NCBI RefSeq assembly: GCF_000155675.2
Contig: NC_020911.1
Span: 2,594,501-2,658,500 of the forward strand
From: Octadecabacter antarcticus 307
GTDB taxonomy: Bacteria > Pseudomonadota > Alphaproteobacteria > Rhodobacterales > Rhodobacteraceae
DNA: 64,000 bases
Direction: 5' to 3'
In this document: piece after piece, positions 1 to 63,853 of the stretch
Numbering within the stretch: the stretch's first letter is position 1
Layout: the number at the start of each line of letters is the position of its first letter
Translations under genes and position numbers: made by a program
The notes under the pieces: model-generated
Database searches by the model: none
Seen by the model: the letters and a program-made list of their open reading frames with translations, nothing else
What the model was told of the DNA's origin: nothing

Positions 1-312
1 CAAGCGCCTTCAGCACGCGATAGACCGAAGCCTCTGATACAAAACGGCTTTCCTTGTCTGTGAAGGTCACGGCCAGTTCCCTCGGTGACAGTTTCGTCTC
101 CTTCAGCGCCAGCTTGACGACCTTGCGCCGCACCTCGTCAGCACCTCTCATTGATACTGCGTATCAACTGCCAGGCAATGAATGCGGTTCCAGACGTGTT
201 TTGGCTTTGGTGATTGATCCTGCAAGCCAGCTTCGCCACGTTGCAGATATCGGTCATACCAACGGTAGAATGTGGTGCGTGGAATGCCGAGCTTGGCCAG
301 CGTCAGACGGGC
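1..312 (-). pseudogene. IS type A orfB transposase fragment, copy 1
   Basis: Minus-strand coding for the N-terminal helix-turn-helix region (about residues 25-110) of the type A orfB seen complete at 9765-10785; nucleotide identity is high. Palindromic insert 1 interrupts it at 143-180 between codons for NRI and ADEV. The gene is cut upstream by insert 2 and downstream by the window start. Non-functional. Confidence 0.8.
143..180 (-). repeat. Palindromic insert 1
   Basis: 38 bp; stem TTGATAC/GTATCAA, left box CATTGCCTGGCAG, right box GAGAGGT. The corresponding site in the second IS copy (about 10586-10592) is empty, and subtracting the insert gives the same reading with no target duplication. 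Confidence 0.9.
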
Positions 313-352
313 CCCTCTCGGCGTTTGCTAGGCAAAAGTCTGCCGGGCAACG
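313..352 (-). repeat. Palindromic insert 2 (at a deletion junction)
   Basis: 40 bp; near-perfect stem around GCGTTTGC/GGCAAAAGT, boxes CCCTCTC and TGCCGGGCAACG. On one side is orfB (residues near LTLAKLGIP), on the other the orfA N-terminus; about 370 bp present in the 10-11 kb copy are missing. Recombination between two inserts would explain this. Confidence 0.85.
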
Positions 353-440
353 GTCGCACGCTTGAAGTCTTTGACGATCGATCCGCCAGGGCTTTTGCGT
401 GTTCCGTTATTCGGGGAAAACGCCCCACTGGGGCCTTTTC
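353..440 (-). pseudogene. IS type A orfA N-terminal fragment, copy 1
   Basis: Matches the start of orfA at 11110-11190 (GTRKSPG...IVKD.KRAT). The remaining orfA was lost in the deletion at insert 2. Non-functional remnant. Confidence 0.7.
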
Positions 441-730
441 TGATCACTCCAACCCTGTCTCATAGAGGTGGTCCCAGTAATTCGACCAGTTTGCGGCCAA
501 CTTAAGGTGGATCAGGGTTTCATTTAGGCTGCTGATCTCATTGGTTCTATTTTTCTGTCATAGGCTTCATCTGGGGTCAATATTCCGTGCGTGGAATGTG
601 GCCGTTCTGCGTTGTAGTACGCAATCCATTTTTCAATCCCGGCGCGTGTTTCTGAACCGGTTTCAAATGCATTGAGATAGATGCATTCATATTTCAGGGA
701 GCGCCAAAGTCGTTCGATCATCCGGTTGTC

Positions 731-769
731 CGTTGCCCGGCAGTGGTTTGCTCGCAAACCATGAGAGGG
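731..769 (+). repeat. Palindromic insert 3
   Basis: 39 bp; stem TGGTTTGC/GCAAACCA, left box CGTTGCCCGGCAG, right box TGAGAGGG. Splits orfB between GKGRWP and DNRMIERLW. The same site in the partial copy at 2362-2401 holds insert 12 with a different but still paired stem. Confidence 0.92.
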
Positions 770-794
770 GGGCCAGCGACCTTTACCGTCCATG

Positions 795-831
795 CACTGC
801 CCGGCAGCGCATGTTTACATGCGTGAGAGGG
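795..831 (+). repeat. Palindromic insert 4
   Basis: 37 bp; CACTGCCCGGCAG, stem CGCATGT/ACATGCG, TGAGAGGG. Splits the orfB codons for DVRIS and MDGKGR. Confidence 0.92.
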
Positions 832-899
832 GATATCCTTACGTCCGCATCCTTCAGTGCATTTATCCATTCAAAGCCAGTGAACTGACTGCCCTGATC

Positions 900-940
900 C
901 GTTGCCCGGCAGGGTTATGCGCAGCATGATCCCGAGAGGG
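900..940 (+). repeat. Palindromic insert 5
   Basis: 41 bp; CGTTGCCCGGCAG, stem GGGTTATGC/GCATGATCCC, GAGAGGG. Falls exactly between the codons for AIMNS and DQGSQF, beside the second catalytic Asp. Confidence 0.92.
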
Positions 941-1013
941 GCTGTTCATTATCGCTGGTTTCCCATATTTTGCGATGGCCTCTTTCAGGGCTTCAACGCA
1001 AAAGTCAGCCTCC

Positions 1014-1053
1014 CACTGCCCGGCAGTGGTTTGCAAAGCAAACCGTGAGAGGG
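1014..1053 (+). repeat. Palindromic insert 6
   Basis: 40 bp; CACTGCCCGGCAG, stem TGGTTTGC/GCAAACC, TGAGAGGG. Splits orfB between SNS and MEADFC. Confidence 0.92.
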
Positions 1054-1102
1054 ATGCTGTTTGACAAACGCCAACTGATAACTTTACGGCTGAACCAGTC
1101 CA

Positions 1103-1142
1103 CTCCTCTCGGCGTTTGCTACGCAAAAGCCTGCCGGGCAAA
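1103..1142 (-). repeat. Palindromic insert 7 (opposite orientation)
   Basis: 40 bp; reads TTTGCCCGGCAG, stem GCTTTTGC/GCAAACGC, GAGAGGAG along the transposase coding strand. This is opposite to its neighbours 3-6, 8 and 9. Splits VAI from LDWFSRK. Confidence 0.9.
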
Positions 1143-1176
1143 GGATCGCGACCAGATACAGAAATCCGCGCCGCCT

Positions 1177-1215
1177 CGCTGCCCGGCAGTTGATTGCAAA
1201 GCAATCAATGAGAGG
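1177..1215 (+). repeat. Palindromic insert 8 (in frame)
   Basis: 39 bp; CGCTGCCCGGCAG, stem TTGATTGC/GCAATCAA with loop AAA, TGAGAGG. In frame, it would add 13 residues ([13 protein letters not shown]) after ITYIP. Confidence 0.9.
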
Positions 1216-1414
1216 GGGAATGTAGGTAATATCAACGCACCAGACCTGATTTGGCCGATCAATCGTCAGCCCCCGAAGCAGGTAAGGATAAATCTTATGC
1301 TGGGGGTGTTTCTTGCTCGTGTTTGGCGTCTGATAAATAGGAACCAATCGCATCAGGCGGCGAACGCGATGGCGACCGCATGTGTGACCATGACGCTGCA
1401 TGTGTCGTGCCATT

Positions 1415-1452
1415 CACTGCCCGGCAGTGCATACGGAGTATGCATGAGAGGG
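1415..1452 (+). repeat. Palindromic insert 9
   Basis: 38 bp; CACTGCCCGGCAG, stem TGCATAC/GTATGCA, TGAGAGGG. Splits WYGSRQ from MARHMQRHGH in orfB. Confidence 0.92.
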
Positions 1453-1815
1453 TGCCGAGATCCATACCATGGCGTTTCCAAGAACTGCTTGTCGATCAAT
1501 TCCATGAACCGCAGGTTCTCAGCACTCTCGCCTTTTGGAGCGTAATACAGATTTGAACGTGCCAGCGACAGCATCTGGCATTGCCGCCGCACGCTGACCT
1601 TCGGATGGTTTCTTTCAATGCACATCTGCCTGCGATCCTTGCTCAACGATCCCAGGCGCGTTTCAAAAAATCGCGCTCCACCACCAACTGACCAATCGTG
1701 GAATGAAGTTTGTCTATCGCGGCGTCATCGACCTGCGCTGGATCACCGCCTCGTTTAGAAAACCCCGCAGCCATATTCTTAATCGCGGCGCGCTTCCAAG
1801 TCCCAATCTGCGTAG

Positions 1816-1852
1816 CCTCTCAGTGTTTGCAAGCAAACACCTGCCGGTAATA
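1816..1852 (-). repeat. Palindromic insert 10 (decayed left box)
   Basis: 37 bp; stem GTGTTTGC/GCAAACAC is perfect, while the left box has lost a base (TTACCGGCAG instead of TTGCCCGGCAG). Splits orfA between YGVH and PTQIGTW. Confidence 0.85.
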
Positions 1853-1935
1853 GATGCACGCCGTATTTTTTCGATAACTCCGCCATTGTCATTTCTTCGC
1901 AGATCGCTTCAAGCGCAACCTTGGCCTTGAAATCC

Positions 1936-1974
1936 CCCTCTCATCGTTTGCGAGCAAACAACTGCCGAGCAGTG
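1936..1974 (-). repeat. Palindromic insert 11
   Basis: About 39 bp; left box CACTGCTCGGCAG, stem TGTTTGC/GCAAACG, TGAGAGGG. Interrupts the orfA N-terminus just before DFKAKVAL. Confidence 0.88.
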
Positions 1975-2037
1975 GGACGAATGGTTCTTTCGTTTCGTCA
2001 TTTTGGATCATCTCTTTCACAAGTTGATCCACCTTAA

Positions 2038-2080
2038 CTACTGGCCCGAATTTCCGCGACCACCTCTCTATTTGGACCCA
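2038..2080 (-). mobile_element. IS type A copy 1, outer terminus
   Basis: Ends in GGCGCTGACGTCAGACAG, matching the right terminus of the type A copy at 11262-11279. With 1-501 it shows that IS type B inserted into type A. Confidence 0.75.
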
Positions 2081-2105
2081 TAGGCGCTGACGTCAGACAG
2101 AGACG

Positions 2106-2217
2106 TTTTTGATACATTGCGCGATGCCCGCAAAATGCTTGAAGAATGGCAGGAGGATTACAACTGGCGCAGGCCACATTCAGCCTTGGCGAACCTGACC
2201 CTGATGAAATTCTTGTA
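2106..2217 (+). pseudogene. IS3-family orfB C-terminal fragment
   Basis: Translation gives FDTLRDARKMLEEWQEDYN followed by WRRPHSALANLTP, the characteristic tail of an IS3-family transposase of a type different from A-E here. It has no N-terminal part and runs into unrelated sequence. Remnant only. Confidence 0.65.
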
Positions 2218-2310
2218 GAGAAAGACGATGGACAAGATGACCGCCAAAGGTCAAAGATTTAATCCCAAGGACTCCGCCCAAGCCGGAGGGAACTTGGGGC
2301 GCAAGTCAGA

Positions 2311-2629
2311 CTGAAAGATGCTGACGTAAAAATATCCAAGGATGGCAAAGGTCACTGCCCCCCCCTCTCATCGTTTGCAAGTAAACGACTGCCGGGCAAT
2401 CGACAACCGAATGATCGAACGGCTTTGGCGTTCCCTCAAGTATGAGTGCATTTATCTGAACGCATTTGAAACGGGCTCAGAAGCAAGGATAGGGGTCAGA
2501 AAATGGATGACATACTACGACACGGAATGCCCACACTCGACACACGGAATATTGACGTCAGACAAGACATATGAATACAAAAAGGAACCCATGAGAGACG
2601 CAGCATAAATCAAACCTTGATCCACCTTA
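2311..2629 (+). pseudogene. IS type B partial copy 2 (orfB C-terminus and terminus)
   Basis: Plus-strand copy of the last third of type B orfB (KDADVKISKDGKGHCP...DNRMIERLWRSLK...MRDAA, stop at 2606-2608) followed by the inverted repeat (TTGATCCACCTTA) ending at 2629. Insert 12 occupies the same codon boundary as insert 3 in the first copy. Confidence 0.85.
2362..2401 (-). repeat. Palindromic insert 12
   Basis: 40 bp; stem CGTTTGC/GTAAACG, boxes CCCTCTCAT and ACTGCCGGGCAATC. Same transposase site as insert 3 but both stem arms changed together (GGTTTGC/GCAAACC there). Confidence 0.92.
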
Positions 2630-2667
2630 GCAAGGCTGCACACTGGTCGAAAAGATAGGACCATCTC

Positions 2668-4158
2668 TTAGCCCGTTGCACGCGCGCGCATGGCACGAAA
2701 ACCGGGTAGCAAAACCAAGCTGACAGCCAAAATCAACAAGCCCAATGTCATCGGGCGTTCCCAGATGAATGACATACCACCATAAAGCTGCATTGAACGG
2801 GAGAAATTGTCCTCCATCATACCACCCAAGATGAAACCGATCAAAAGTGGCGGCAGCGGGTAGTTCGCAAATTTCAAGGCAATACCGCAGACACCGAACC
2901 CAACAAGCAACAACAGTTCGGTAGCGTTGTTTTGCCCGATATATGCCCCCATCAACGTGAAGAAGAGGATGAACGGGATCAAATAATTGCGTGGAATTGC
3001 AAGAACTTTGGCGATGTAGGGGATCAACGGCAGGTTCAGGATCAACAACACAAGGTTGCCGATGAACATCGACATGATCACGGCCCAGAAAATCTGCGGT
3101 TCGTCGATCATCAAACGCGGCCCGGGTGTAACGTTAAGTGCGATAAGCGCGCCAAGCAGGATTGCTGTCGTACCAGACCCCGGAATGCCGAGCGTTAACA
3201 GCGGCACAAACGACCCCGTACAGGCCGCGTTGTTGGCGGTTTCGGGCGCTGCGAGGCCTTTGATCGACCCTTTGCCAAATTCGTCTTGTTCATGTTTGGG
3301 GGCGATGTTGCGTTCCACGGCATACCCCAAGAAGCTGGCGATTGTGGCACCGGCACCGGGCAAAACACCAATGAAAAAACCTTGGACAGATTGACGTGCT
3401 ATGATCGGCGCGATGGCACGGGCTTCTGCGCGCGTGATGCGTAGCTCTTTAATTTCGCCGCCACTGTCGCCCAGATTTTTGGGTTTCAGGACAAGGAATA
3501 TTGCCTCAGGCAGCGCGAACATCGCCATCGCAAGCGTGACAAAACCAAAGCCCGATTGCAGGTCCATAATGCCCATTGTGAAACGTGGCAGGTTGAACAG
3601 CGCGCCTTCACCAACCGTCGCCATAATCAAACCGAACACCGTCATCAACAACGCTTTGGCCACTTGGCCTCGGCCCGCAAACGCGGCGATGGCGGACATG
3701 CCTACAATCATCAGCGCGAAATATTCAGCAGAATGGAACAGCAACGCCACAGACGACAGCATCGGCGCGAAGATCATCAACAAGATGGCGCCAATGGTAC
3801 CACCAGCGAAACTGGCGATTGCGGCAATGGTCAGCGCCTTGCCGGCCTTGCCTTGTTGCGCCATCGGGTAGCCGTCGAAACTTGACGCGACCGTGCCTGC
3901 CACGCCAGGCGCGTTGAGCAAAATAGATGACGTCGATCCACCAAAAATCGCGCCGTAATACACACCGGCAAGCAGGATCAAAGCGGCGGATGGATCGCCC
4001 ATCGAAATGGCAACCGGGATCATTATAGCGATGATCGACATCGGCCCAAGGCCCGGCAACATGCCGATGAATGTGCCAATCAAACAGCCAGCAACGACGA
4101 GTAGAAGGTTTTGAAAAGACAGGGCCGTTTGCAGGCCAATCAGAATACCTTCGAGCAT
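2668..4158 (-). CDS. tctA: Tripartite tricarboxylate transporter, large membrane subunit TctA
   Basis: 496 aa, the usual TctA length, with about twelve hydrophobic segments. It carries the conserved N-terminal pattern GxxxGxLPGLGP (near residue 32) and the repeat-related stretch VLPGAGATIASFLGY in the second half. It forms the channel for secondary uptake of a carboxylate delivered by the binding protein TctC. Follows tctB with a 1-base gap, so the two are co-transcribed from the tctC side. The substrate (citrate, tricarballylate or other acid) cannot be read from sequence. Confidence 0.95.
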   Translation of the reverse strand: MLEGILIGLQTALSFQNLLLVVAGCLIGTFIGMLPGLGPMSIIAIMIPVAISMGDPSAALILLAGVYYGAIFGGSTSSILLNAPGVAGTVASSFDGYPMAQQGKAGKALTIAAIASFAGGTIGAILLMIFAPMLSSVALLFHSAEYFALMIVGMSAIAAFAGRGQVAKALLMTVFGLIMATVGEGALFNLPRFTMGIMDLQSGFGFVTLAMAMFALPEAIFLVLKPKNLGDSGGEIKELRITRAEARAIAPIIARQSVQGFFIGVLPGAGATIASFLGYAVERNIAPKHEQDEFGKGSIKGLAAPETANNAACTGSFVPLLTLGIPGSGTTAILLGALIALNVTPGPRLMIDEPQIFWAVIMSMFIGNLVLLILNLPLIPYIAKVLAIPRNYLIPFILFFTLMGAYIGQNNATELLLLVGFGVCGIALKFANYPLPPLLIGFILGGMMEDNFSRSMQLYGGMSFIWERPMTLGLLILAVSLVLLPGFRAMRARATG

Positions 4159-4159
4159 G

Positions 4160-4654
4160 TTAGCCCCCTATCAAAGCAATGATGAAAGCCGGAAGTGGCC
4201 GCATGTAAATACCCAAAACCTCTTGCACGAGGTACCAGACAACAAACGTCGCACTGAGCGCTATCAGCAACATAATGTGCCATTTACGCTCGCCCAAAAT
4301 GAACGACCCAAGCAGCAAGAACGAAGCGGTGGAAATCAGAAAACCGATAGGGCGCAGGCACAGCGCGTAGACCACCATAAGGCCAAGCAGCAGCAGCGCT
4401 TGGCCAAGTTTGTATTCGTGCAGGCGGCGGTAATCGATCTCGCCTATCTTTTCCTCACCCTTCTCAAGACCAAGCAGGATGATGAACGCAGCAACCGAGC
4501 CAAAGACCGACAAAACTTTGGGGAAGGTGCTGGGCCAGACCGGGTTGCGGCGCATGAAGGGCGCGAGGCCATCGTCCATCGTGAACCACGCAGTGTAGCC
4601 ATAAGTGAGGCAAATACCCAAAAAAATAAGCGCAATCCAACGATCCAAGGCCAT
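4160..4654 (-). CDS. tctB: Tripartite tricarboxylate transporter, small membrane subunit TctB
   Basis: 164 aa with four predicted membrane helices, typical of TctB. I chose the ATG at 4654 (MALDRWIALIFLGICLTYG) over an upstream ATG at 4711, because the latter would place the intercistronic hairpin inside the gene. It partners TctA in the membrane. The operon order tctC-tctB-tctA is standard. Confidence 0.9.
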   Translation of the reverse strand: MALDRWIALIFLGICLTYGYTAWFTMDDGLAPFMRRNPVWPSTFPKVLSVFGSVAAFIILLGLEKGEEKIGEIDYRRLHEYKLGQALLLLGLMVVYALCLRPIGFLISTASFLLLGSFILGERKWHIMLLIALSATFVVWYLVQEVLGIYMRPLPAFIIALIGG

Positions 4655-4683
4655 ACGTGTATTCCTTAATTTCAGATGTAGAA

Positions 4684-4711
4684 ATGGCGGAGCAGTTGAC
4701 CGCTCCGCCAT
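4684..4711 (-). promoter_or_regulatory. Intercistronic hairpin between tctC and tctB
   Basis: Perfect 10-bp inverted repeat ATGGCGGAGC / GCTCCGCCAT with an 8-base loop, only about 10 bases after the tctC stop and before tctB. It has only a weak T-run on the coding side. Such hairpins commonly protect the 3' end of the binding-protein message or attenuate the membrane genes; that role is inferred. Confidence 0.7.
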
Positions 4712-4720
4712 GTAGGCATC

Positions 4721-5707
4721 TTAGAGGAAGCCGAGTTTGGTCATCAGATCGCCAATGACTGTTTCCTGCTCTTCAAGGAAGACGCGGAAATCATCGCCAG
4801 GGTTATGGATGTTGACCCAACCGTTACGCGCACGGACGGCTTCCCATTCAGATGTGTCATACATTGCAGCAATTGCCGCTTGGTACTGGGCCAGCTTTTC
4901 ATCAGACATGCCAGGTGCGCCGAAGAAACCGCGCCAGTTGATGAACGTGGTGTCGATGCCCTGCTCTATCATGGTCATTGCGTCTGGCGCTGCGGCTACA
5001 CGCGCGTCAGATGTCACACCGATGATTTTGACTTCGCCAGCGTTTGCCAGATCAACCGCCTCAGAAAAACCAGTCGACAGAGCCACGATTTCACCCGACA
5101 GCAATGCTGCCATGGCTGTACCACCAGCGTCATATGGAATGTAGTTCACGCTAAGTGCGTCACGACCGGATGCTTCCATAACCATGGCTGCAACAAGGTG
5201 GTCCATGCCACCCGGAACCGAACCGCCGCCAATCGGTGAGGCAGATGGGTCCACGTCATACACAGCAAGGAATTCTTCCATGTTGTTGATCGGGCTGTCT
5301 TTTCCGACAACGACCGCCGCATAGTCACCAATCGTGCCGGACACCAGCGTCAGGTCACGAAAGTTAAACGGGAACACGCCAGTCAGCGAACGGATCACGA
5401 TTGGGGTCGAATTGACCATCAATGTGCCTTCGTTGCTTTCGGCATTTTCAATCAGATAACCAATGGCTGTACCGCCACCGCCACCGGACATGTTCTCAAA
5501 GGATGCAGTCCCGATCAGGCCGGATTCTGTCAGCGCCTCGCCAACACCCCGAGCAGTACCATCCCAGCCACCACCGGCGCCGCCAGGAATCAGAAAGTGG
5601 ATACTGTCGAGCACTTGGTGACCATCAGCAAATGCCGGTGTTCCAAGGCCAAGCGTAGCGACAGCAGTCGTTATCAGGGCGCGACGGCCCATTTTCATCA
5701 TTGTCAT
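4721..5707 (-). CDS. tctC: Tripartite tricarboxylate transporter, periplasmic binding protein TctC
   Basis: 328 aa with a twin-arginine-like or Sec signal (MGRRALITTAVATLGLGTPAFA) and the TctC/Bug family pattern: IHFLIPGGAGGGWDGTAR near residue 37 and YIPYDAGGTAMAALLSGEI near residue 190. Captures the carboxylate in the periplasm for TctAB. First gene of the tct operon, divergent from the regulator pair that probably controls it. Confidence 0.93.
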   Translation of the reverse strand: MTMMKMGRRALITTAVATLGLGTPAFADGHQVLDSIHFLIPGGAGGGWDGTARGVGEALTESGLIGTASFENMSGGGGGTAIGYLIENAESNEGTLMVNSTPIVIRSLTGVFPFNFRDLTLVSGTIGDYAAVVVGKDSPINNMEEFLAVYDVDPSASPIGGGSVPGGMDHLVAAMVMEASGRDALSVNYIPYDAGGTAMAALLSGEIVALSTGFSEAVDLANAGEVKIIGVTSDARVAAAPDAMTMIEQGIDTTFINWRGFFGAPGMSDEKLAQYQAAIAAMYDTSEWEAVRARNGWVNIHNPGDDFRVFLEEQETVIGDLMTKLGFL

Positions 5708-5746
5708 TTTATTCTCCCATTTGGTAGCCGTTCTCCCAACGACACC

Positions 5747-5758
5747 GTGTTATAACAC
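5747..5758. promoter_or_regulatory. Palindrome in the tctC/tctD divergent promoter region
   Basis: Perfect 12-bp palindrome GTGTTATAACAC in the 105-bp gap between tctC and the response regulator. Candidate binding site for the TctD-like regulator; inferred from position only. Confidence 0.45.
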
Positions 5759-5771
5759 AAACACGTCAACC

Positions 5772-5787
5772 TGACACAAACCTGTCA
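5772..5787. promoter_or_regulatory. Inverted repeat TGACA-N6-TGTCA
   Basis: TGACACAAACCTGTCA lies 26 bases before the response-regulator start. OmpR-type regulators usually bind direct repeats, so this may be a different operator or coincidence. Confidence 0.35.
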
Positions 5788-5812
5788 TCAGGCCGAAAAG
5801 GCAACCGGCACC

Positions 5813-9668: not shown

Positions 9669-9764
9669 TGTCTGACGTCAGCGCTTCTGGTGTACGTCGT
9701 CAGGGTTTTTGGCACCAAAGGCGGCTTAAATTAAGAGAGCGTTCGGCTCATCTGGTTGGTGTCA

Positions 9765-10785
9765 TTATGTGGCGTGCAGGCTGTGATGCAAGCGGCGCGC
9801 TTCGAGTGTCTTTCGTTTGATCCTTTCCCTTTGTTGTAGAATGGCTTTGTCACGGCCGAAGTAGACGTCAGACGGCGTGACGTTGTTCAGACTCTCGTGG
9901 AAGCGCTGGTGGTTGTAGTGATCGACGAATGCTTCAATTTGGGCTTCAAGATCACCTGGCAGGAAGTAGTTTTCCAAGAGGATGCGGTTCTTCAAGGTTT
10001 GATGCCATCGCTCGATCTTGCCCTGTGTTTGCGGATGATATGGCGCGCCGCGAGAATGCTTCATGCCTTTCCCTTGCAACCACTCAGCCAGGTCACCGGA
10101 TACGTAACTGGATCCGTTGTCGCTCAGCAGCCGTGGTTTGTGAACGACGTGAACCTGATCACAGCCGGACGCCTTAAGGGCCAAGTCGAGCGTGTCAGTC
10201 ACGTCCTCAGCCCGCATATTGGTGCAGAGTTTCCACCCTCTCGGGACATTGCTGCGCAATACCCTGCCGGGCAGCGGAGATGATGTAACGGCTGTAATCG
10301 TCTAGGATCGTACTGAGATAGAACCAGCCCCATCCCAGAACCTTGAGATAGGTGAAGTCAGTTTGCCAAAGCTGGTTGATCGCTGTGGTTTTGTCTTTGA
10401 ACGCACTGGCGGCTTTCATGACGATGAAGGCTGGGCTGGTGATCAGGTCATGCGCCTTCAGCATACGGTATACGGAAGCCTCTGATACGAAGTAGCTTTC
10501 CTTATCTGTGAAGGTCACTGCCAGTTCACGCGGTGACAGTTCTGTCTCTTCCAGCGCAAGGTCCACAACCCGACGTCGCACCTCGTCAGGAATACGGTTC
10601 CAGACGTGCTTTGGCTTGGGAGATTGGTCTTGCAAGCCAGCCTCACCACGCTGCCAATACCGATCATACCAACGGTAGAATGTGGTGCGTGGAATGCCGA
10701 GCTTGGCCAAAGTCAGGCGGGCCGGCAGATGCGACCCCTCGACCAGCTTGATGATCTCCAGCTTCTCTGATGCGGGATACCTCAT
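9765..10785 (-). pseudogene. IS type A orfB transposase, split by insert 13
   Basis: Integrase-type (rve) DDE transposase with two N-terminal helix-turn-helix segments. Before the insert: WQTDFTYLK (first Asp) and DDYSRYIIS; after it: WKLCTNMRAEDV, LLSDNGSSYVSG (second Asp) and PQTQGKIERWHQTLKNR (Glu). Subtracting the 40-bp insert joins both halves into a full-length frame of about 325 aa with no other damage. Confidence 0.85.
10236..10275 (-). repeat. Palindromic insert 13
   Basis: 40 bp; GCTGCCCGGCAG, stem GGGTATTGC/GCAATGTCCC, GAGAGGG. Nearly identical stem to insert 19 in an unrelated IS5-family gene. Splits YIIS from WKLC. Confidence 0.92.
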
Positions 10786-11193
10786 TCGTGGTCGCCCCCA
10801 CCGTCGAACATGCTTTTTTTGAGCAAGCGGAGTTCAAGTGTTTGCTCCGCAACGACTTCCTTCAGATCACGTGCTTCACGGCGCAGATCCTTCACCTCGT
10901 CGGTTGTGGCGGCGCGGGCGGTATCGCCCGCAAGGCGCTTCTTACCGGCCTCCATAAAGTCCTTGGACCATTTGTAGTAGATGCCTTGGGAGATGCCTTC
11001 ACCCCTCTCGTGCATGTAAACATGCACTGCCGGGCAGTGGACGACACAGCTCGGCAATGCTGTCTTCCCCACGCAGACCGTCTAAGACGATCCTAATCTT
11101 CTCTTCAGATGAATAATGCTTGCGGGTCGCCCGTTTGATATCTTTGACGATCTTCTCGCCCGGGCTTTTGCGTGTTCCAGTTGTCTGTCTCAT
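10782..11193 (-). pseudogene. IS type A orfA, split by insert 14
   Basis: Helix-turn-helix transposase partner, starting at the ATG at 11193 after GAGGAG. Reads RKHYSSEEKIRIVLDGLRG...IAELCR, insert, then EGISQGIYYKWSKDFMEAG and a coiled-coil end (VAEQTLELRLLKKS). Subtracting the 37-bp insert restores the frame. Confidence 0.85.
11003..11039 (-). repeat. Palindromic insert 14
   Basis: 37 bp; CACTGCCCGGCAG, perfect stem TGCATGT/ACATGCA, CGAGAGGG. Splits IAELCR from EGISQG. Confidence 0.92.
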
Positions 11194-12360: not shown

Positions 12361-13166
12361 CAATGCTTTGACAATTTTGGCAGAAGCTGGGGATGTACGG
12401 CGCTTTCGTCATCACCGGCAGTTTTTGAAGTTCTGTGGAATGGACCTTGCGACTATGCAATCAGGTACATTCAGAGGGCAAACCAAACTGTCAAAATATG
12501 GCAATGCTCGGCTTCGTCGAACGCTTTGGATGGCTGGACAGGTTGCTATTCTGCAGCGCACCAACAGCTTCCGCGACAAGTTCGAGCGCTACATCGCCAA
12601 AGACCGTCACAACACCCATTTGCGCCGAAAGGCGTACACCGCAATCGCAGCGAAGATGGCCCGAACCGTTCATGGGATCATCAAGCACGGCGAACCATAT
12701 CGCCCCTTCTTTGAGGGGTGATCGACAGCAGTAGGACCTTTCTCTGTAAGGGCCGTGGAGGCAGACAACTGACCTCGTAGATAATGTTTAGGCCTTCTGC
12801 TCAACGACCCAAAGATCTCGTCTTAAGGACGGTGAGAGCCGCAAAAGCGTACTCTGTGTTTGTTATGGGAGAGACAGTTCGTTGACCAAAATGCCAAACT
12901 GAGCAATGCTTCTAACGTGTCGAGACGCCTCGATGCGACAATAACCTGACGCCAATTCAGCTAATCATTCCGCGCATAGGACGTTATCGACACGTATGGT
13001 TTGGGGTTTGCCGCGCCACTCGATGATCTGGTTCAGGCTCCGGACGACGCGTTCCGCGGGCAGCGAGACGTCCACGTCAATGCACAAGCCTTCACGATTG
13101 AAGTCATCCAAGACGTTAAGAGTTCGGATTGATCTGCCATCTGCAAGCTGATCCGCCATGAAATCC

Positions 13167-13205
13167 CCTCTCATCGATTGCAAAGCAATCAACTGCCGGG
13201 CAGTG
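13167..13205 (-). repeat. Palindromic insert 15 (in frame)
   Basis: 39 bp; CACTGCCCGGCAG, stem TTGATTGC/GCAATCGA with one mismatch, TGAGAGG. The same site in the other type C copy holds insert 22, which is a perfect long palindrome. Confidence 0.92.
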
Positions 13206-13381: not shown

Positions 13382-13419
13382 CACTGACCGGCAGGTGACT
13401 GGCAAATTCACCGAGAGGG
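13382..13419 (+). repeat. Palindromic insert 16 (decayed stem)
   Basis: 38 bp; CACTGACCGGCAG, stem GGTGA/TCACC with a mismatched inner part, CGAGAGGG. Insert 23 at the same site of the second copy has a perfect 8-bp stem. Confidence 0.88.
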
Positions 13420-13436
13420 AATCGTCGGTGAGACGG

Positions 13437-13777: not shown

Positions 13778-14010
13778 GCTGGACCCACTTGTTAAGCGTC
13801 GAAAGTCCAACCCCCAAATCCGATGAAAGCTGGGGCCGCCCCTCTCGTCGATACTGCGTATCAACTGACGGGCAGTGGTTAAACCACTGGTCGTGGCGAT
13901 CCGCACCGCATCACGGCGAAACTCGTCTGTATATTTCTTTGCAATTCGTTCTCTCCTTCATAGCAAACATTGCTCGAAAGAGACCGGAACTAAACCGTGG
14001 CAAGACCAGG
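13778..14010 (-). pseudogene. IS type D fragment (orfA N-terminus)
   Basis: Matches the start of the intact type D element at 18036-18250, including its terminus (TTAGTTCCGGTCTCTTTCGA on the complement). The orfA start codon has mutated (ATT instead of ATG), and insert 17 lies after ATTSGLT. Truncated by IS type C. Confidence 0.8.
13840..13877 (-). repeat. Palindromic insert 17 (with in-window empty site)
   Basis: 38 bp; CACTGCCCGTCAG, stem TTGATAC/GTATCGA, CGAGAGGG. The uninterrupted site is at 18161-18173 (GGTTAAC then GCGGCC). Comparison gives exact borders and no target-site duplication. Confidence 0.95.
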
Positions 14011-20760: not shown

Positions 20761-20814
20761 GGCTTTGTTGCACAAATCGCCCTTATGGCGTGCTTCCCCT
20801 GACCCCTGACGGAT

Positions 20815-21786
20815 TCAGCCTACAGTAACGGTGTTTGGGATGCCAAGGGCGGTGAAGCCGTTGAGTATCGCGGCACGGATTTGGACTTCCGCAACTTGCC
20901 GGTCAAAGTCTCGTGCGGCCAGGCGCTGCCCGAGTAGTTTCAAACAATGCATCTTTGTCTCAACACGACTCCTGCGGTGGTATCCGCTCAAGCGACGCCA
21001 TTGAGCGCGGCCGAGATCCTTTGAGGACTGTACCGCTTCGTTTCGGGCTCTGGCCCCCAGCGTATCCGGCTTCCATAGCTTGGCATTCTTGCGTGGCGGG
21101 ATGACAGCACGGGCATTGCGGGCCGCAATCGCATCATGGCATTTGCGGGTGTCATATGCCCCATCTGCTGTGACACTGCCAATCTTCTGATCTGGTGTGA
21201 TCTGACCGAGAAGGTTGGGCAACATGGGTGGGTCTCCAATGCTGCTACTCGTCACTTCGACCGCGCGTATCTCCAACGTTTCTTCATCAATCCCTATATG
21301 TATCTTGCGCCACACCCGACGTTTCGGCCCGCCATGCTTGCGAGCGTTCCACTCACCTTCGCCCTCAACTTTGATGCCGGTACTGTCGATAAGGAGGTTT
21401 AGCGGGCCCTTTGAGCCCTGATACGGGATGGTAACCGATAGCCTTTTCTGACGCCGACATAACGTGCTGAAGTCTGGGACCTCCCAGTCAAGGTCGATCA
21501 ATTTCAACAGGCTTTCCACAAAGCCCGTCGCCTGCCTCAAAGGCATTCCGAACAGCACTTTCAACGTGAGACAGGCTTGGATCGCCGCATCGCTATAGCG
21601 TGGCTGGCGGCCCCGTTTGCCCCCCTCTCATGGTTTGCAAACAAACCACTGCCGGGCAACGGTAGGCGCAGCTTTCCAAGTGACCTCTGGGTTAAACCAA
21701 ATGGTCAGTGACCCGCGTCGCTTCAGGGCCTTGTTATACTCAGGCCAGTTCCTCGTGCGGTAAATCGGGGCGATAGGTTTACTCAT
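20815..21786 (-). pseudogene. IS5-family transposase, interrupted by insert 18
   Basis: Starts at 21786 (MSKPIAPIYRTRNWPEYNKA). Insert 18 lies between WKAAPT and GKRGRQPRYSD, and introduces an in-frame stop. The DDE_Tnp_1 body is otherwise complete (LLIDSTGIKVEGEGEW, VTADGAYDTRKCHDAI, RRSRVETKMHCLKLLG). Subtracting the 39-bp insert restores the full-length protein of about 310 aa. Confidence 0.88.
21623..21661 (-). repeat. Palindromic insert 18
   Basis: 39 bp; CGTTGCCCGGCAG, perfect stem TGGTTTG/CAAACCA, TGAGAGGG. Its stem resembles inserts 3 and 6, although the host gene belongs to another IS family. Confidence 0.93.
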
Positions 21787-21853
21787 GACGCCAGCTACCA
21801 TGCTGGATTTACAACATGAATCCCTGATACGAGACTATTTGTGCAACAAAGCC

Positions 21854-55340: not shown

Positions 55341-55402
55341 ACGTTTGTTCCCCTTATGTTCTTTAGTATTTCTCTTTGTAGTCATATGAGAAAAACTAGT
55401 CA

Positions 55403-55617: not shown

Positions 55618-55626
55618 TTTCCCAGT

Positions 55627-58421: not shown

Positions 58422-58923
58422 TGCTGCTCTCCGGGTGACCATACAAAATCTGAGGGCAGTGGCGGGCGATCGCTTCGATGATCCTTTGGAGCGGTTCCCC
58501 TTCGTCACGCGTAAGTTCGAGCAGATGTTCACGCCCATCTGAACCGCCCATTCCAGTCCCTATGACGTTGCCGGTTTCGTGCTGCCCCTCGCACAGCCCG
58601 ATGAGGAGGGGCACGAGGATGTACTCCCCGGCATCCCAGACAGTGTCTGCATCGGCGTTTTTGAACACCAATACCAACGTGGCGCGCAGCAAATCTAAAC
58701 GTTGCCCATGGCCTAGGCATCCCTTTGCTAGACGATCAGCGTATTCATCGCTCATTTCTGTAGCGGCGGCGGCCCTATACAGAGTGGCGATGGTTCCCTT
58801 CAAATTCGCCGCAGAGGGCGCACCCGGACCGGGGCGCAACAAGGGTTCAGGCGAAGTCAGCGTGGCACGCTGTTTACTGTTCATGTACCGCTGACGCGGC
58901 GTTCCGTTCGTCGAGTTGACCAT
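58414..58923 (-). CDS. Hypothetical island protein
   Basis: 169 aa from the ATG at 58923 (MVNSTNGTPRQRYMNSK). Helical; LVLVFKNADADTVWDAGEYILVPLLIGLCEG. Overlaps the primase-like gene by 8 bases, so likely co-translated. No family recognised. Confidence 0.6.
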   Translation of the reverse strand: MVNSTNGTPRQRYMNSKQRATLTSPEPLLRPGPGAPSAANLKGTIATLYRAAAATEMSDEYADRLAKGCLGHGQRLDLLRATLVLVFKNADADTVWDAGEYILVPLLIGLCEGQHETGNVIGTGMGGSDGREHLLELTRDEGEPLQRIIEAIARHCPQILYGHPESSNE

Positions 58924-59035
58924 TTTGGCCTCCATTCAATTGCTTGCTCGGGAGGCGCGTGTCGGCTATCTTGATTATGCGGTATCCAAAACGCATCAAG
59001 ATGTCGAAGCGCGCGCCGTTATCGCGGCGTGCGTT

Positions 59036-59224
59036 TCACGCCACCGAAGTTTCGGCTAACGCATCCATCCATTTTTGAAGATCGCTCATGCGCCACCGGA
59101 CGCTATTCTCACCGGTGCGCAGCGGTCGTGGAAATCTACCCTCGGCCATGAGGCGATAGATCGTGGTTCGCGAGAACCCGGTCATTTCCTCTACGACCCG
59201 ACGTTTCAACAGTTGTTCAACCAT
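59036..59224 (-). CDS. AlpA-family transcriptional regulator / excisionase
   Basis: 62 aa from the ATG at 59224. Winged helix LLKRRVVEEMTGFSRTTIYR, then FPRPLRTGENSVRW and DLQKWMDAL: classic AlpA/MerR-like phage regulator. Expected to control excision or the replication genes downstream. Confidence 0.9.
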   Translation of the reverse strand: MVEQLLKRRVVEEMTGFSRTTIYRLMAEGRFPRPLRTGENSVRWRMSDLQKWMDALAETSVA

Positions 59225-59294
59225 TTTTCCATTCCTTTGTGATGGCTTGCCTCCACAAAGTCCCGGAAAGGGCTTCTTAGAACTCAACCAGAAT

Positions 59295-60266
59295 TCAGGA
59301 TAAAATTAAGTCATTGTTTTTATTGCCAAAGTGCAATCTTGGATGAGCACACACGTACTCCACAGCTGATCGCCAACCATTGTCGCCAACCTCTTGCTGC
59401 GACACTCCCAGCGCTCCCAAAGCTGCTTCAACAGCGCAGCAATATAAGTTATCCGGTACGTAGTTTATCACATCGTCGGCGACACCGCGCCGCGTCCCTT
59501 TGACTGGCTTTCGCGCAAGCTTCACTATGAGTTTTTCTGCCGCCTTCCGGTCGTTGATTGCTTCTGCAGCGACACGGGCAGCATCGAAATACGCCGCGAC
59601 TAGGTATGCGACTTCGATTGCTGCGAGGTTTTTGCCTGAACGGCCTTGGGCAGGCCTTTCGTCAAGAAAATCTACCACCTCGCGTGCGACGCGCTCGCAG
59701 TCCTCAGCCATGAAAGCAATATCGTTCAGGGCATCCGTTACGAGGCTGTCTGCCTCTTTCCCTTCATTCTTATATAACCGCTCCGACGCCTTTTTTGCAT
59801 CCGCGCGTAACATATTACTGCTGGGGGCAGCTTGAAACGCTCGCAAATGCTTGGCGATACCAGCATGAGCTTCCCCGTACCTACGCATTTCATCGCGAAA
59901 GTCCCCTGCTGTGCGGTATGTGGATAGATCCCGCGGGCAATAACCAGTTGCCAGCTCCAGACGCCATTCTAAGTGACGTTCTTGAGTGCGCAGCCAGTGC
60001 TCGACAGCCTCCTTCGATGCCTTACACTGCACCATGCATTGATTGTCATTGAAACGTAGTGGCCGACCCTGTTCGCCAGGCCAGTAGAAAGGCCAGTATT
60101 TCCGTGCAAGAGCATGTGCGGCACGATCTTCGGCGACATTTAATAGTATATCAACCAGTGCGGCTTTGCGTGCGCGCCACTCTTCCTTAAGTTCTGGCGA
60201 AGCCTTAGCAGATGGAGAGGTTGGAGACGGCCCAACCGGTTTGGCAGGTCTTCCTCGCCGCCCCAT
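59295..60266 (-). CDS. Hypothetical island protein next to integrase
   Basis: 323 aa, basic Pro-rich N-terminus (MGRRGRPAKPVGPSPTSPS) and helical body (EWRARKAALVDILLNVAED; WPFYWPGEQGRPLRFNDNQC). Starts at the integrase stop. No family recognised. Confidence 0.6.
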   Translation of the reverse strand: MGRRGRPAKPVGPSPTSPSAKASPELKEEWRARKAALVDILLNVAEDRAAHALARKYWPFYWPGEQGRPLRFNDNQCMVQCKASKEAVEHWLRTQERHLEWRLELATGYCPRDLSTYRTAGDFRDEMRRYGEAHAGIAKHLRAFQAAPSSNMLRADAKKASERLYKNEGKEADSLVTDALNDIAFMAEDCERVAREVVDFLDERPAQGRSGKNLAAIEVAYLVAAYFDAARVAAEAINDRKAAEKLIVKLARKPVKGTRRGVADDVINYVPDNLYCCAVEAALGALGVSQQEVGDNGWRSAVEYVCAHPRLHFGNKNNDLILS

Positions 60267-61564
60267 CAGACACTTTCTCTTACCGCGAACGACACGACAT
60301 CACCCGTCTCGACACGTCCGTCGAGAAAATCCGACCACGCCGCCATCATAGCGCGACGCCGCTCTAGCATGTCAGAGCGCCGGTAGGCGCGTTCCACAGC
60401 ACTGCCCACATCGTGAGCAAGCGCCATTTCCGCCATATCACGCGGATAGCCGCACTCTGCTGTCCAGTCACGAAATGTCGAGCGCAGACCGTGGGGCACC
60501 GCAGGACGGCCGGACGCGCGATCTAACCATCCGGCGCACCCGACATCAATTTCTGCCTGCTGCATCCGCCGCATGACGGCGGAGAGCGACATATCGGAGA
60601 GAACACCACCTCGGGGGGCGCTGAATACGGGGCGACCACAGTCAGTGGGATCGGCGTCGGGGGCCACCGCCATGCTCTCCAATAATGAAAACGCGGGTGC
60701 GGAAAGTGGAACACGATGCTCACGGCTCGCCTTCATGCGGTCGGCAGGTACGGTCCAGACGCCTGTCGTCAGATCAACTTCCGCCCAAGTCATGCCACGC
60801 ACCTCACCTGAACGAGCCGCGGTCAGGGCCAGAAATTCAAGCGCACGTGCCGCCACTCCGTCGCGACCGCGCAGTGCCGCATACCAGACTGAGACATCAG
60901 AACTCGCCAATGCTGGGTGATGAACCGTTTTGGCGACGCGCTGAGGTTTTGGGAGCATCTCCGACAAATTACCTTTCCAGCGCGCCGCGTTCTCGCCTTC
61001 CCGATGTCCGGCTGCCGTAGCCCAAGAGAGAATGGCTTCGATCCGCCCACGTAGGCGTGAAGCAGTTTCCGTCTTCTCGGTCCAAATTGGTTCCAGAACG
61101 CGTAGCACATCCGCCGTGTTAACCTTTCCAACGGGGAGCGCGCCAAGAATTGGCAAGGCGTAGGTATCTAGCGTGCTGCGCCATTGTTTGCGATGTTTGT
61201 CTGAACGGAACTCCGACGATTTGGCGGCAATGGCGTGTTCAGCCGCGGTGGCAAAGGTCAAGAAAGTCCGCGCGTTGCGGCGAATGGCAACAGGGTCGTT
61301 ACCGGCTTGCACCGTGCGCATGTTATCCAGCGCCGCTTCGCGCGCAGCTGCTAGGGTCACAACCGGCGGCGTGCCTAGGCCAATCTCTCGCCGCCGCCCC
61401 GAGATGACGATGCGCTGCACCCAGCGGCGGCTTCCGGACGGTTCGACGCGCAGCATCAAACCAAGTCCACCACCGTCGTGGTACTTTCCTGGGTCGCGAA
61501 CCGTGCGTACGAAAGCTGCACTAAGCGACTTCCCTATCCTTGGATTGATGCTTGCGCCTGACAT
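60266..61564 (-). CDS. Tyrosine recombinase/integrase, P4 type
   Basis: 432 aa. N-terminal DUF4102-like arm domain (YHDGGGLGLMLRVEPSGSRRW), core with Arg in TAARSGEVRGM, HGLRSTFRDW (HxxR), then AHDVGSAVERAYRRSD with the nucleophilic Tyr. ATG at 61564 chosen as the first inside the conserved region. Adjacent to the right att repeat; catalyses island integration and excision at tRNA-Ser. Confidence 0.93.
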   Translation of the reverse strand: MSGASINPRIGKSLSAAFVRTVRDPGKYHDGGGLGLMLRVEPSGSRRWVQRIVISGRRREIGLGTPPVVTLAAAREAALDNMRTVQAGNDPVAIRRNARTFLTFATAAEHAIAAKSSEFRSDKHRKQWRSTLDTYALPILGALPVGKVNTADVLRVLEPIWTEKTETASRLRGRIEAILSWATAAGHREGENAARWKGNLSEMLPKPQRVAKTVHHPALASSDVSVWYAALRGRDGVAARALEFLALTAARSGEVRGMTWAEVDLTTGVWTVPADRMKASREHRVPLSAPAFSLLESMAVAPDADPTDCGRPVFSAPRGGVLSDMSLSAVMRRMQQAEIDVGCAGWLDRASGRPAVPHGLRSTFRDWTAECGYPRDMAEMALAHDVGSAVERAYRRSDMLERRRAMMAAWSDFLDGRVETGDVVSFAVRESV

Positions 61565-61707
61565 ACCTGTCCCCCTCGCTGTCCCCCACAGAGTAGAGGA
61601 ATGCATGGGATTTCACAAGCCCACTTGGGACGAGCTATCGTACGATGTATATGATATAATTGATACTTTTGGTACTCTTGGGAACCTATGGGAGCTGAGC
61701 ATGGCTG

Positions 61708-61724
61708 CCTGTCTCTCCGCCAAT
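61708..61724. repeat. attR-like direct repeat
   Basis: CCTGTCTCTCCGCCAAT, exact copy of the tRNA-Ser 3' end at 39535-39551. Lies between the two integrase genes. Confidence 0.9.
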
Positions 61725-61873
61725 ATACCATTACTGTTAGTTTGAACGGGTCGCCTTGGTCGGCCTTTTTACTATATATACATGGCTCAAGTGCACTTTT
61801 CGGATTGCCTTGAGTTTTCTTCGGTTACGTCTATTTTCTTTCCCTGAGTGGTATGGAATGTGGTATTTTATAG

Positions 61874-62709
61874 ATGGCCCTATCTGGCAAACTGACAAAG
61901 AGGCTGGTCGAGAACCTTGGCGCGGGGCGGCATGGCGATGGCGGCGGGTTGTATCTGGTGGTGGACCCGTCCGGTGCGCGGCGCTGGATCGTGCACGTTG
62001 TCGTGAAGGGGCAGAAGAATAAACAGGGCGGGCCGTTGCGGACTGATTTTGGTTTGGGTGGCGCGGATATTGTCACGATCAACCAAGTCCGCGACCGTGC
62101 GCTGGAATATCGCCGGATGGCGAAGCAAGGGCTTAACCCGCGTTTCAACGTTCAGCGTGAAGTTCCAACCTTTGAAGAGTTCGCACAGCAAGTCCATATT
62201 GAGCGGATGCCGACGTGGAAAAATGCCAAACATGGCCAGCAGTGGATCAACCCACTGCGGGATTATGCCTTTCCCAAGATCGGGCGAATGCCAATCGACA
62301 GCATCAACCAACCCGAGGTGATGATGTGCCTGTCGCCAATCTGGACAGAAAAGCATGAAACGGCGCGGCGGTTGGCGCAACGGATTAAAACGGTTTTGGA
62401 TGTGGCACGGTCTAAGGGGTTCAGGTCCGGCGAGAACCCCGTCACGGCGATTAAGGATGCCCAAGCCCTTCCCAAGGTGAAGGCTAAGCCCAAACACCAC
62501 AAGGCGATGCGCTGGCAAGATGTGCCTGCGTTCTATGCGGACCTTAAATCCCGCAACGCAATGTCAGCCAACGCCTTGCGGTTTACGTGCCTGACCGGAT
62601 CACGGACAAGCGAAGTCTTAGGGATGCGCTGGGAAGAAATCGACTTCGAAGCGCGATTGTGGACCTGTCCGGCTGAGCGGATGAAGACGGGCGAAGAACA
62701 CCGCGTGAT
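61874..62709 (+). pseudogene. Second tyrosine integrase, C-terminus lost to IS5
   Basis: DUF4102 arm domain (RHGDGGGLYLVVDPSGARRW) and core up to the catalytic Arg (TCLTGSRTSEVLGMRW) and CPAERMKTGEEHRV. From about 62709 the frame runs into IS5-family sequence, so the HxxR and Tyr are missing. Starts 150 bp beyond the att repeat, as expected for the integrase of a second island at the same tRNA site. Confidence 0.88.
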
Positions 62710-62776
62710 AAAGAAGCGGACGGGACATCCGCTGTTGTCGCGTGCAGTTTGGTGTTCATGCCGCCCTTGGTTAGCC

Positions 62777-62817
62777 CCCTCTCGCGACATTGCTGCGCAA
62801 TACCCTGCCGGGCAGTG
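62777..62817 (-). repeat. Palindromic insert 19
   Basis: 40-41 bp; CACTGCCCGGCAG, stem GGGTATTGC/GCAATGTCGC, GAGAGGG. Near-identical to insert 13 although the host IS families differ. Splits GRLF from GLTKGG. Confidence 0.92.
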
Positions 62818-62889
62818 AAACAGGCGCCCACACCCCCTTTTTAGCCTCAGGCTGGAAGCCGTGCGATGTGCCTTGAGGTAGGTTGCATC

Positions 62890-62927
62890 CACTGCCCGGC
62901 AGTCGAAACACAGTCTCGATGAGAGCG
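62890..62927 (+). repeat. Palindromic insert 20
   Basis: 38 bp; CACTGCCCGGCAG, stem TCGAAAC/GTCTCGA (6 of 7 paired), TGAGAGCG. Falls exactly between codons for KTISI and DATYL. Confidence 0.9.
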
Positions 62928-63381
62928 GATCGAGATTGTCTTATTATCTGGGGCCTGTTCTGCCAGCCCCATCATGATCCGGGCGAACACGCCCATGTCA
63001 CTCCAGCGCTTCCAACGATTATACAAAGTCTTTGGCCGCCCATATTCCGCAGGCGCGTCACACGGTAATCCCCCCATTTTTAATGGGGCTCGGCCGTAGA
63101 ATTCACGCGGCTGTTTTCAGTTTCATTGCGGGTGTTATGCCGCCGATGCCCATGTTGGGTCTCTCATTGTTGTAAGTCCAGAGCCATTCAGTTGCTTGTT
63201 CTTGTGCCTCCTCGATGGTTTCAAAGATGTATTGGCTCAGCCATTCGCCGCGAATGGCTCGATTGTAGCGCTGGATATAGGCGTTCTGCTGAGGTTTGCC
63301 TGGTTGGATATGTTCAAGCCAAACGCCGTGTTTCTCGGCCCATGTCATCATGGTCCCATTGATGTATTCTGGGCCACTGTC

Positions 63382-63422
63382 CGTTGCCTGACAGTTGATT
63401 GCAAAGCAATCAATGAGAAGGG
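63382..63422 (+). repeat. Palindromic insert 21
   Basis: 40-41 bp; CGTTGCCTGACAG, stem TTGATTGC/GCAATCAA, TGAGAAGGG (one extra A in the right box). Splits QTIRV from DSGPEY. Confidence 0.9.
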
Positions 63423-63599
63423 ACACGTATGGTTTGGGGTTTGCCGCGCCGATCGATGATTTGGTTCAGGCTCCGGACGACGCGTTCTGCGGGCAGCGAG
63501 ACGTCCACGTCGATGCACAAGCCTTCACGATTGAAGTTATCCAAGACGTTAAGAGTTCGGATCGATCTGCCGTCTGCAAGCTGATCCGCCATGAAACCC

Positions 63600-63638
63600 C
63601 CTCTCATTGATTGCAAAGCAATCAATGAGAGGGCAGTG
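63600..63638 (-). repeat. Palindromic insert 22 (perfect long palindrome)
   Basis: 39 bp at the same site as insert 15. The left box CCGGCAGT is replaced by the complement of the right box, giving CCCTCTCATTGATTGC / GCAATCAATGAGAGGG around TTT. Confidence 0.92.
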
Positions 63639-63815
63639 ATAGACCAAGTATCGTTTGGCGCGTCAGGCACGGCCAGGCGTTCCAGCCAATCTGCAATCTC
63701 CTCGTTCTCATCACTCAAGATCGGGCTGTACCGATAGCAGGTCTCGCTAATTTGGAAGGTGCGGCAGGCAAGTGCGATACTTGTGCCCCGCTGCATGACT
63801 GCATTCATGGCCATC

Positions 63816-63853
63816 CACTGGCCGGCAGGTGAATGGCACATTCACCGAGAGGG
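63816..63853 (+). repeat. Palindromic insert 23
   Basis: 38 bp; CACTGGCCGGCAG, perfect stem GGTGAATG/CATTCACC, CGAGAGGG. Same IS site as insert 16, which has a partly mismatched stem. Confidence 0.9.

Follow-up and report, generated by a model that had tools for sequence, protein, structure and literature searches.

A palindromic hairpin insert in insertion-sequence DNA of Octadecabacter antarcticus 307, possibly a passenger of mobile elements

Introduction

The described elements nearest to the subject of this paper are the repetitive extragenic palindromes (REPs), the palindromic elements of Rickettsia and the GC clusters of yeast mitochondria. We studied a short hairpin insert that interrupts transposase genes of insertion sequences (IS) in Octadecabacter antarcticus 307, whose genome is described as a 4.8 Mb chromosome and a 63 kb plasmid (PMC3646047). 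The insert was noticed in a 64-kb stretch of DNA, here called the window (positions 2,594,501-2,658,500 of a 4,812,600-base contig; the two-contig genome has 4,875,481 bases), in an original prediction made from the letters alone. It consists of C(A/G)(C/T)TGCCCGGCAG, a variable hairpin of about 6-9 bp and then GAGAGGG; the two conserved parts are referred to as the left and right box.

REPs are described as palindromes of 20-40 bp that belong to the GTAG and CGTC super-families, are associated with transposases of the Y1 kind (REP-associated tyrosine transposases, RAYTs) and lie mostly between genes (PMC3733652). The insert resembles them as a palindrome of this size with many copies, a conserved tag by the hairpin and no gene of its own, and differs in that it lies mostly in transposase genes, whereas the REPs of that account are mostly intergenic (PMC3733652). 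Its tags, which are also the boxes by which copies were found, are TGCCCGGCAG and GAGAGGG and not GTAG or CGTC, and seven carrier genomes had no match to a Y1 transposase. The palindromic elements of Rickettsia are likewise inserts within protein genes of an alphaproteobacterium (PMC10969869), and the reading frame runs through two of the three phage methylase inserts described below. They are given as about 150 bp long, in frame and in unrelated metabolic genes (PMC10969869), whereas the present insert is 37-45 bp, in random frame within IS, and has mobile genes as hosts. With the yeast GC clusters (GC42) it shares a length of about 40 bp, the lack of genes, merged or shuffled units and an unsettled mechanism of transposition; the clusters have a putative AG target duplication and reside in mitochondrial DNA (PMC4478555), whereas no duplication was found here. 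Prokaryotic miniature inverted-repeat transposable elements (MITEs) are also short, non-autonomous and repeated (PMC10969869). The insert differs from them in its end boxes, which are unlike each other, and in having no terminal inverted repeats, no target duplication and no parent IS that we could find. The byp elements of yeast mitochondria and the gap of T4 gene 60 are hairpin gaps within genes; the insert differs from both, since it occurs in both orientations and in random frame. The original prediction had set aside the Rickettsia elements and byp as precedents that do not fit, which agrees with the random frame and mixed orientation.

Literature searches turned up no description of this element, and 'palindrom' is unused in the genome paper (PMC3646047). 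At the gathering score, Rfam gave only Cis8_sRNA and a tRNA in the window, and the insert matched no family.

Results

Confinement of the insert to IS DNA

The contiguous first 1.81 Mb of the genome was surveyed closely, counting copies with at most two box mismatches (the scans are blind to copies with more than two to three). In total 123 copies in 63 site clusters were detected, and all 123 were in IS DNA. A mask made from repeats and transposase matches covered 13% of this sequence and held 122 of the copies, and the remaining one (C2:901995) lies in an IS903/IS5-type protein group. Both flanks were in repeated DNA for 112 copies, one flank for seven and neither for four, as compared to 246, 204 and 2550 of 3000 random points. 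Three of the four copies with unrepeated flanks are in an IS256-type remnant (Transposase_mut) and one is in the IS903/IS5-type group.

Separately, one largely unrepeated IS256-type remnant (G000:C2 804624-805289) was seen to hold four inserts in about 700 bases.

When the 1.81 Mb, the window and nine other stretches were taken together, 90 own site clusters were obtained, 84 of which had a blastx transposase match within 600 bases. The Pfam names of the host frames include rve, DDE_Tnp_1, Transposase_20, DEDD_Tnp_IS110, HTH_Tnp_1, DUF772 and Transposase_mut. Relative to the transposase, 35 clusters were in sense and 49 in antisense orientation, with 6 ambiguous. The motif at the insertion point, determined from 150 sites, amounted to 3.6 bits, and target sites scoring at or above the median numbered 6,904 within the IS mask and 56,457 outside it. 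A target motif as the cause of the confinement was rejected, as 3.6 bits is too little.

The prediction had stated that the insert is found only inside transposase genes. This held for the own genome as sampled and did not hold for every relative, where RelE, RHS, methylase and intergenic hosts were also found. The inside-versus-outside scan that it had suggested came out on its side in the 1.81 Mb, and the view of a miniature DNA-level element tied to transposase genes, in many IS types and in both orientations, was borne out.

Copy number and structure

In the whole genome the exact motif was found 284 times (134 + 150), and the motif read backwards does not occur in it at all. In the window, the left box at zero to one mismatch gave 28 matches where 2.05 were expected, and none of 100 shuffles reached 28; many of these sites are counted on both strands because the box is nearly palindromic. 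Scanning the window for two boxes plus a stem gave 21 matches, and none when the window was reversed.

The length, including the three left bases, was 37-41 bp in 198 of 207 own copies and 42-45 bp in nine. Covariation was examined in sequences picked by hand for variety and good stems, so that the figures lean upward; two rows were typed with the consensus left box, and the box columns are invariant because copies were found via the boxes. In the 38-column class (22 different sequences) 96.0% of cells pair and both-side changes occur at eight of nine pairs, values that none of 500 shuffles reached. In the 36-column class (20 sequences) all cells pair (0 of 500 shuffles), and both-side changes at seven of eight pairs were matched by 6 of 500 shuffles. 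The long class has an unpaired T on the 3' arm, invariant in 22 of 22. One copy is nested inside another, two are remnants without a hairpin, and several have one box swapped for a mirrored form of its partner, an outcome expected of hairpin template switching. Half-copied perfect palindromes are also present.

How the insert enters DNA

Filled and empty sites were compared in 23 pairs with 78-97% flank identity, and the net insertion was 37-41 bp in every pair. No target duplication was found in any of them. Ten pairs had lost no target base, and in seven of these the insert ran exactly from the three left bases through GAGAGGG. The remaining 13 pairs show altered bases beside the junction, usually 1-6 of them and 13-20 in three pairs, and in one pair two bases overlap; these differences may reflect divergence or a small replacement. 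Insertion was often after (C/T)CATC. The reading frame was kept at 35 of 104 resolved own sites, which is chance level, and was open at 21 and not open at 83 of them. In relatives it was kept at 10 of 52 sites and open at six. Neither set showed a sign of selection for frame.

Inserts, IS amplification and age

IS-A is a 1,093-bp IS903/IS5-type element of which 22 copies have the insert at the identical place; 13 aligned copies were 99.9-100% identical. No copy without the insert was found at up to three mismatches across the junction. The IS-A frame runs on through the insert apart from one UGA, and four intact relatives at 80% protein identity are possible helpers. An IS481-type family, named from plasmid annotations, was found ten times in 2.45 Mb, and nine of these copies have two recognised inserts each. 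Its sole intact close relative, which is carried by the plasmid and matches in pieces at 81-88% DNA identity, is also a possible helper. The genome paper lists one IS481 gene and 16 IS481 pseudogenes in O. antarcticus (PMC3646047).

Repeat families with at least three copies at 97% identity numbered 29, with partial overlap between families, and 14 of them bear inserts in most copies. Insert status within a family is nearly all-or-none, apart from a single copy that has just one of its two inserts and from two mixed families that may be composite. The empty state was met in 2 of 556 comparisons of homologous sites at 96% flank identity or above, 18 of 74 at 92-96%, 54 of 212 at 86-92% and 100 of 141 at 80-86%, the comparisons being pairs of copies and not independent. 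Box identity in same-site comparisons is inflated by the mismatch cut-off and was not used. Based on the comparisons by identity, most insertions predate the recent IS bursts, and interrupted IS therefore multiplied along with their inserts. Both empty cases at 97-98% come from one own IS copy (D 89763-89860 of stretch 3005001-3405000), which is without two inserts of its relative in genus genome G400, locus L287.

Other genomes and viral contigs

The exact motif was present in 115 of 394 family genomes, which gave five reversed-motif matches in total, and in 10 of 19 genomes of the genus, the own genome being counted in both sets. One other genus genome had 44 exact copies. A match to the motif need not be a hairpin. 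The spread across the family is wide and mostly low-copy. Distant-phylum matches without a hairpin were left out before counting, as were sites of relatives with a stem fraction below 0.6 (16 at 0.45-0.6, some in IS). Among the 71 non-own hairpin-bearing site clusters that remained, 58 were in or by IS genes: 47 by blastx (three below 60 bits), four by Pfam, three by grouping with Pfam-named frames and four by eye. The other 13 comprised two other mobile genes (RHS, RelE), six intergenic-looking sites, two ambiguous, two too short and one probably due to chance. Eight high-copy genomes, from a set in which 3 of 30 loci gave no copy in a later scan, contributed 46 copies; 38 had a transposase match in the 600-base flanks and 23 had it across the insertion point, many from one repeated IS. 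Their other eight copies were three intergenic ones from one genome, one in a transposase by a weak Pfam match and four ambiguous.

A separate observation concerns a GC-rich stem class of this motif that lies between genes in a few genomes (L269, L270, L276, L282, L283), for which three of five, by eye, lie between convergent genes and are terminator-like.

Fourteen good hairpins were found in viral contigs: eight in transposase genes, four in the C5-methylase genes that three of the contigs carry (by eye for one of the four), one in a RelE-like gene (by eye) and one ambiguous. The inserts in phage C5-cytosine methylase genes (L386 8880-8913, L431 1527-1560 and L416 5559-5594) are at one place and have three differing stems, two of them linked by a paired change (by eye). 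The methylase frame passes through the insert in two of the three contigs. Over all sites, 55 clusters hold more than one element sequence, and about half of these, by eye, include unrelated stems at the same base and in the same orientation in homologous IS, including a pair of IS3 copies with 98.4% identity. The pattern is consistent with recurrent entry at a preferred position or with replacement.

Copies in the window

The window holds 23 copies, the number of the prediction, reached again by the two-box scan plus reading by eye. Two scan matches (978-1025 and 58586-58633, three mismatches each) were dropped, and 19 were accepted. Four copies were added by eye (313-349, 13385-13419, 62893-62927 and 63599-63638), all of which also surfaced in the left-box or homologous-site analyses. 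The copies and the IS-A element are:

143..177, minus strand: insert with two box mismatches; two-box scan, empty homologous site at window 10591
313..349, minus strand: insert with imperfect stem; by eye, left-box match
734..769, plus strand: insert in a multi-insert IS3 element; exact motif, two-box scan
798..831, plus strand: insert in the same multi-insert IS3 element; exact motif, two-box scan
903..940, plus strand: insert in the same multi-insert IS3 element; exact motif, two-box scan
1017..1053, plus strand: insert in the same multi-insert IS3 element; exact motif, two-box scan
1104..1140, minus strand: insert with one mismatch in the same multi-insert IS3 element; two-box scan
1180..1216, plus strand: insert in the same multi-insert IS3 element; exact motif, two-box scan
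1418..1452, plus strand: insert, with an unrelated stem here in a 98.4% identical IS3 copy; two-box scan, copy comparison
1815..1850, minus strand: decayed insert with three mismatches; two-box scan
1936..1971, minus strand: insert with one mismatch; two-box scan
2363..2398, minus strand: insert in an IS3-type fragment; two-box scan
10236..10273, minus strand: insert in an IS3-type transposase gene; two-box scan
11003..11036, minus strand: insert in the first frame of the IS3-type element that also holds 10236..10273; two-box scan, placement by eye
13166..13202, minus strand: insert in an IS3-type gene; two-box scan
13385..13419, plus strand: decayed insert; by eye, homologous-site comparison
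13840..13874, minus strand: insert, clean against an empty site; two-box scan, filled/empty pair
20761..21853, minus strand: IS-A, IS903/IS5-type element, one of 22 insert-bearing copies; copy alignment
21623..21658, minus strand: insert within the IS-A transposase gene; two-box scan
62777..62814, minus strand: insert in an IS5-type gene; two-box scan
62893..62927, plus strand: decayed insert in the same IS5-type gene as 62777..62814; by eye, left-box match
63385..63421, plus strand: decayed insert with three mismatches; two-box scan
63599..63638, no strand assigned: insert that is a perfect palindrome, with a mirrored right box in place of the left box; by eye, homologous-site comparison
63819..63853, plus strand: insert with one mismatch; two-box scan

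Two further features of the window were recorded. A 314-codon frame at 61874-62818, by eye a phage-type integrase, is cut near 62740 by the insert-bearing IS5-type fragment, and the Rfam match to Cis8_sRNA (Ruegeria cis8 sRNA) lies at 2996-3123 with 94.6 bits.

Search for an enzyme

The Y1_Tnp family (PF01797) was sought in the own genome and 22 others. The own genome gave 24 matches and genus genome G400 gave 48. Matches were also found in carriers G007, G064, G340, G394, G395 and G397. In G377, G067, G250, G013, G262, G396 and G398, seven of the 14 carriers checked, there was no match, and G013 is a two-contig genome with 11 copies of the insert. To look for ends shared with autonomous IS200/IS605-type elements, three of eight fetched own Y1 loci were scanned (one also by eye), and no boxes were found at their ends; the lone motif copy was a nearby IS-A insert. 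A Y1 or RAYT enzyme as the mover was rejected on account of the seven carriers, and the Y1/REP-type enzyme that the prediction had suggested looking for met no match in these seven. An autonomous long form was also rejected: the 14 unpaired left boxes in the fetched DNA were truncated, degenerate or weak-stem copies, or chance.

Discussion

The element is DNA-level, non-autonomous and mostly old. We tentatively put forward, as an explanation that may well be right, that it is a new non-autonomous palindromic element that travels as a passenger mainly of IS and phage DNA. We prefer a carrier because the target motif is weak, there is hardly any recent insertion and several of the non-IS hosts are mobile genes too. 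The hairpin, probably in single-stranded form, would be inserted by an enzyme not yet found that has weak specificity for its site. Purging would remove the copies in ordinary genes, and those in IS or other mobile DNA would survive, multiply with their carrier (mobilised in trans by its intact relatives) and enter new hosts along with it, so that this genome would have got most of its copies already inside its IS. The near-perfect pairing of diverse stems would come partly from template switching in the hairpin, which is suggested because half-copied perfect palindromes were seen.

Several results weigh against this explanation. No enzyme or autonomous partner was found, the search for the latter being the 14 unpaired left boxes in the fetched DNA. 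Arrival with inserts already in place can be seen for very few copies, because only one own cluster, C2:325247 with L287, clearly shares its stem type with another genome. The eight high-copy genomes are IS-biased and offer no evident donor full of intergenic copies, which fits targeting. The G400/L287 pair indicates that inserts were gained or lost there while the IS copies diverged by about 3%, and its two empty sites at 97-98% identity therefore weigh the carrier explanation down and targeting up. One IS3 family has eight or nine inserts per copy, which also fits targeting. Finally, 28 kb outside the mask without frames of 70 codons have 1,867 sites at or above the lower-quartile score and no copies, where about 5.5 copies would be expected at the rate in the mask (63 clusters per 21,287 sites; own arithmetic). 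Survival alone does not easily give zero copies in frame-free DNA outside IS.

Targeting means that an enzyme, a guide or a transposition intermediate aims insertion at transposase genes, with homing-like reuse of positions. We consider this unlikely overall, though a real possibility. It would account for the 123 of 123 own copies in 13% of the sequence, for the 58 of 71 clusters in other genomes (including the four by eye and the three below 60 bits) and the 38 of 46 copies in high-copy genomes (23 across the insertion point, many of one IS), for the eight or nine inserts in one IS and the gain or loss of two inserts between IS copies about 3% diverged, and for unrelated stems that share position and orientation in IS homologues and in phage methylase genes. 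It is opposed by the weak motif of 3.6 bits, by near-identical IS copies that almost never differ in inserts, by the RelE, RHS, phage methylase and intergenic hosts elsewhere and by the lack of a candidate enzyme. A gene-less homing element, a hairpin of 40 bp that re-enters the same transposase and phage positions by the aim of an enzyme or guide and is a parasite of parasites, seems unlikely to us. Pure survivorship supposes uniform insertion in this genome, with IS amplification and purging feigning the confinement; unlike the passenger explanation, it has no arrival from outside. The weak motif, the near lack of ongoing insertion and the dispensable hosts are in its favour, but the 63 separate site clusters in IS, and the zero copies against about 5.5 expected in frame-free non-IS DNA, leave it hardly probable.

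A REP-type nature of the insert, with a RAYT-like Y1 (HUH) tyrosine transposase as its mover, would suit its short hairpin with a conserved unpaired base, its asymmetric ends, the lack of target duplication, insertion after a short motif and the 24 Y1_Tnp matches in the own genome. The seven carriers without a match, among them two-contig G013, the three own Y1 loci without boxes at their ends and the mostly intragenic location nevertheless make it improbable. The insert might instead be silent in its host gene through mRNA splicing, ribosome bypass or readthrough, so that interrupted transposases still work. This is suggested by the 22 insert-bearing IS-A copies, beside which no insert-free copy was found, by the IS-A frame that continues apart from one UGA, by the frame through two phage methylase genes and by the sense orientation of the insert in five of the six families that bear it and have four or more copies at 95% identity (in one family, one insert was ambiguous). 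However, the latter figure against the base rate of 35 of 84 gives only p ~0.05 (own arithmetic), both orientations occur, frame is random in own sites (35/104) and relatives (10/52), one IS has nine inserts, and intact relatives could act in trans for the two largest families; we regard silence as quite improbable. A silencing device, borne by the host or by IS, that disables transposase genes is very improbable. In its favour, 83 of the 104 resolved own sites lack an open frame through the insert, and the genome paper classes as pseudogenes 265 of the 626 transposable-element genes in O. antarcticus (263 of 1175 in O. arcticus; PMC3646047). Against this, the insert-bearing families are among the most amplified (IS-A 22 copies, the IS481-type ten sampled), insertion was repeated into already broken IS and almost no insertions here are recent. 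The suggestion in the prediction of an IS-silencing parasite or host device is contradicted by the fact that all 22 IS-A copies carry the insert and nine of ten IS481-type copies carry two, that inserts mostly predate the IS bursts and that eight or nine per IS3 copy exceed what silencing needs.

We met no report in the literature searched of such a niche, in which a family is confined to IS in the sampled part of this genome and spans many IS families and genera, and it offers a natural test of whether selfish DNA can specialise on other selfish DNA. The insert is probably responsible for some of the numerous broken transposable-element genes that the published annotation lists. Interrupted IS do multiply, so that an IS is not finished when its transposase is 'dead'. 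Stowaway spread on IS, if true, would be a new niche for mobile DNA.

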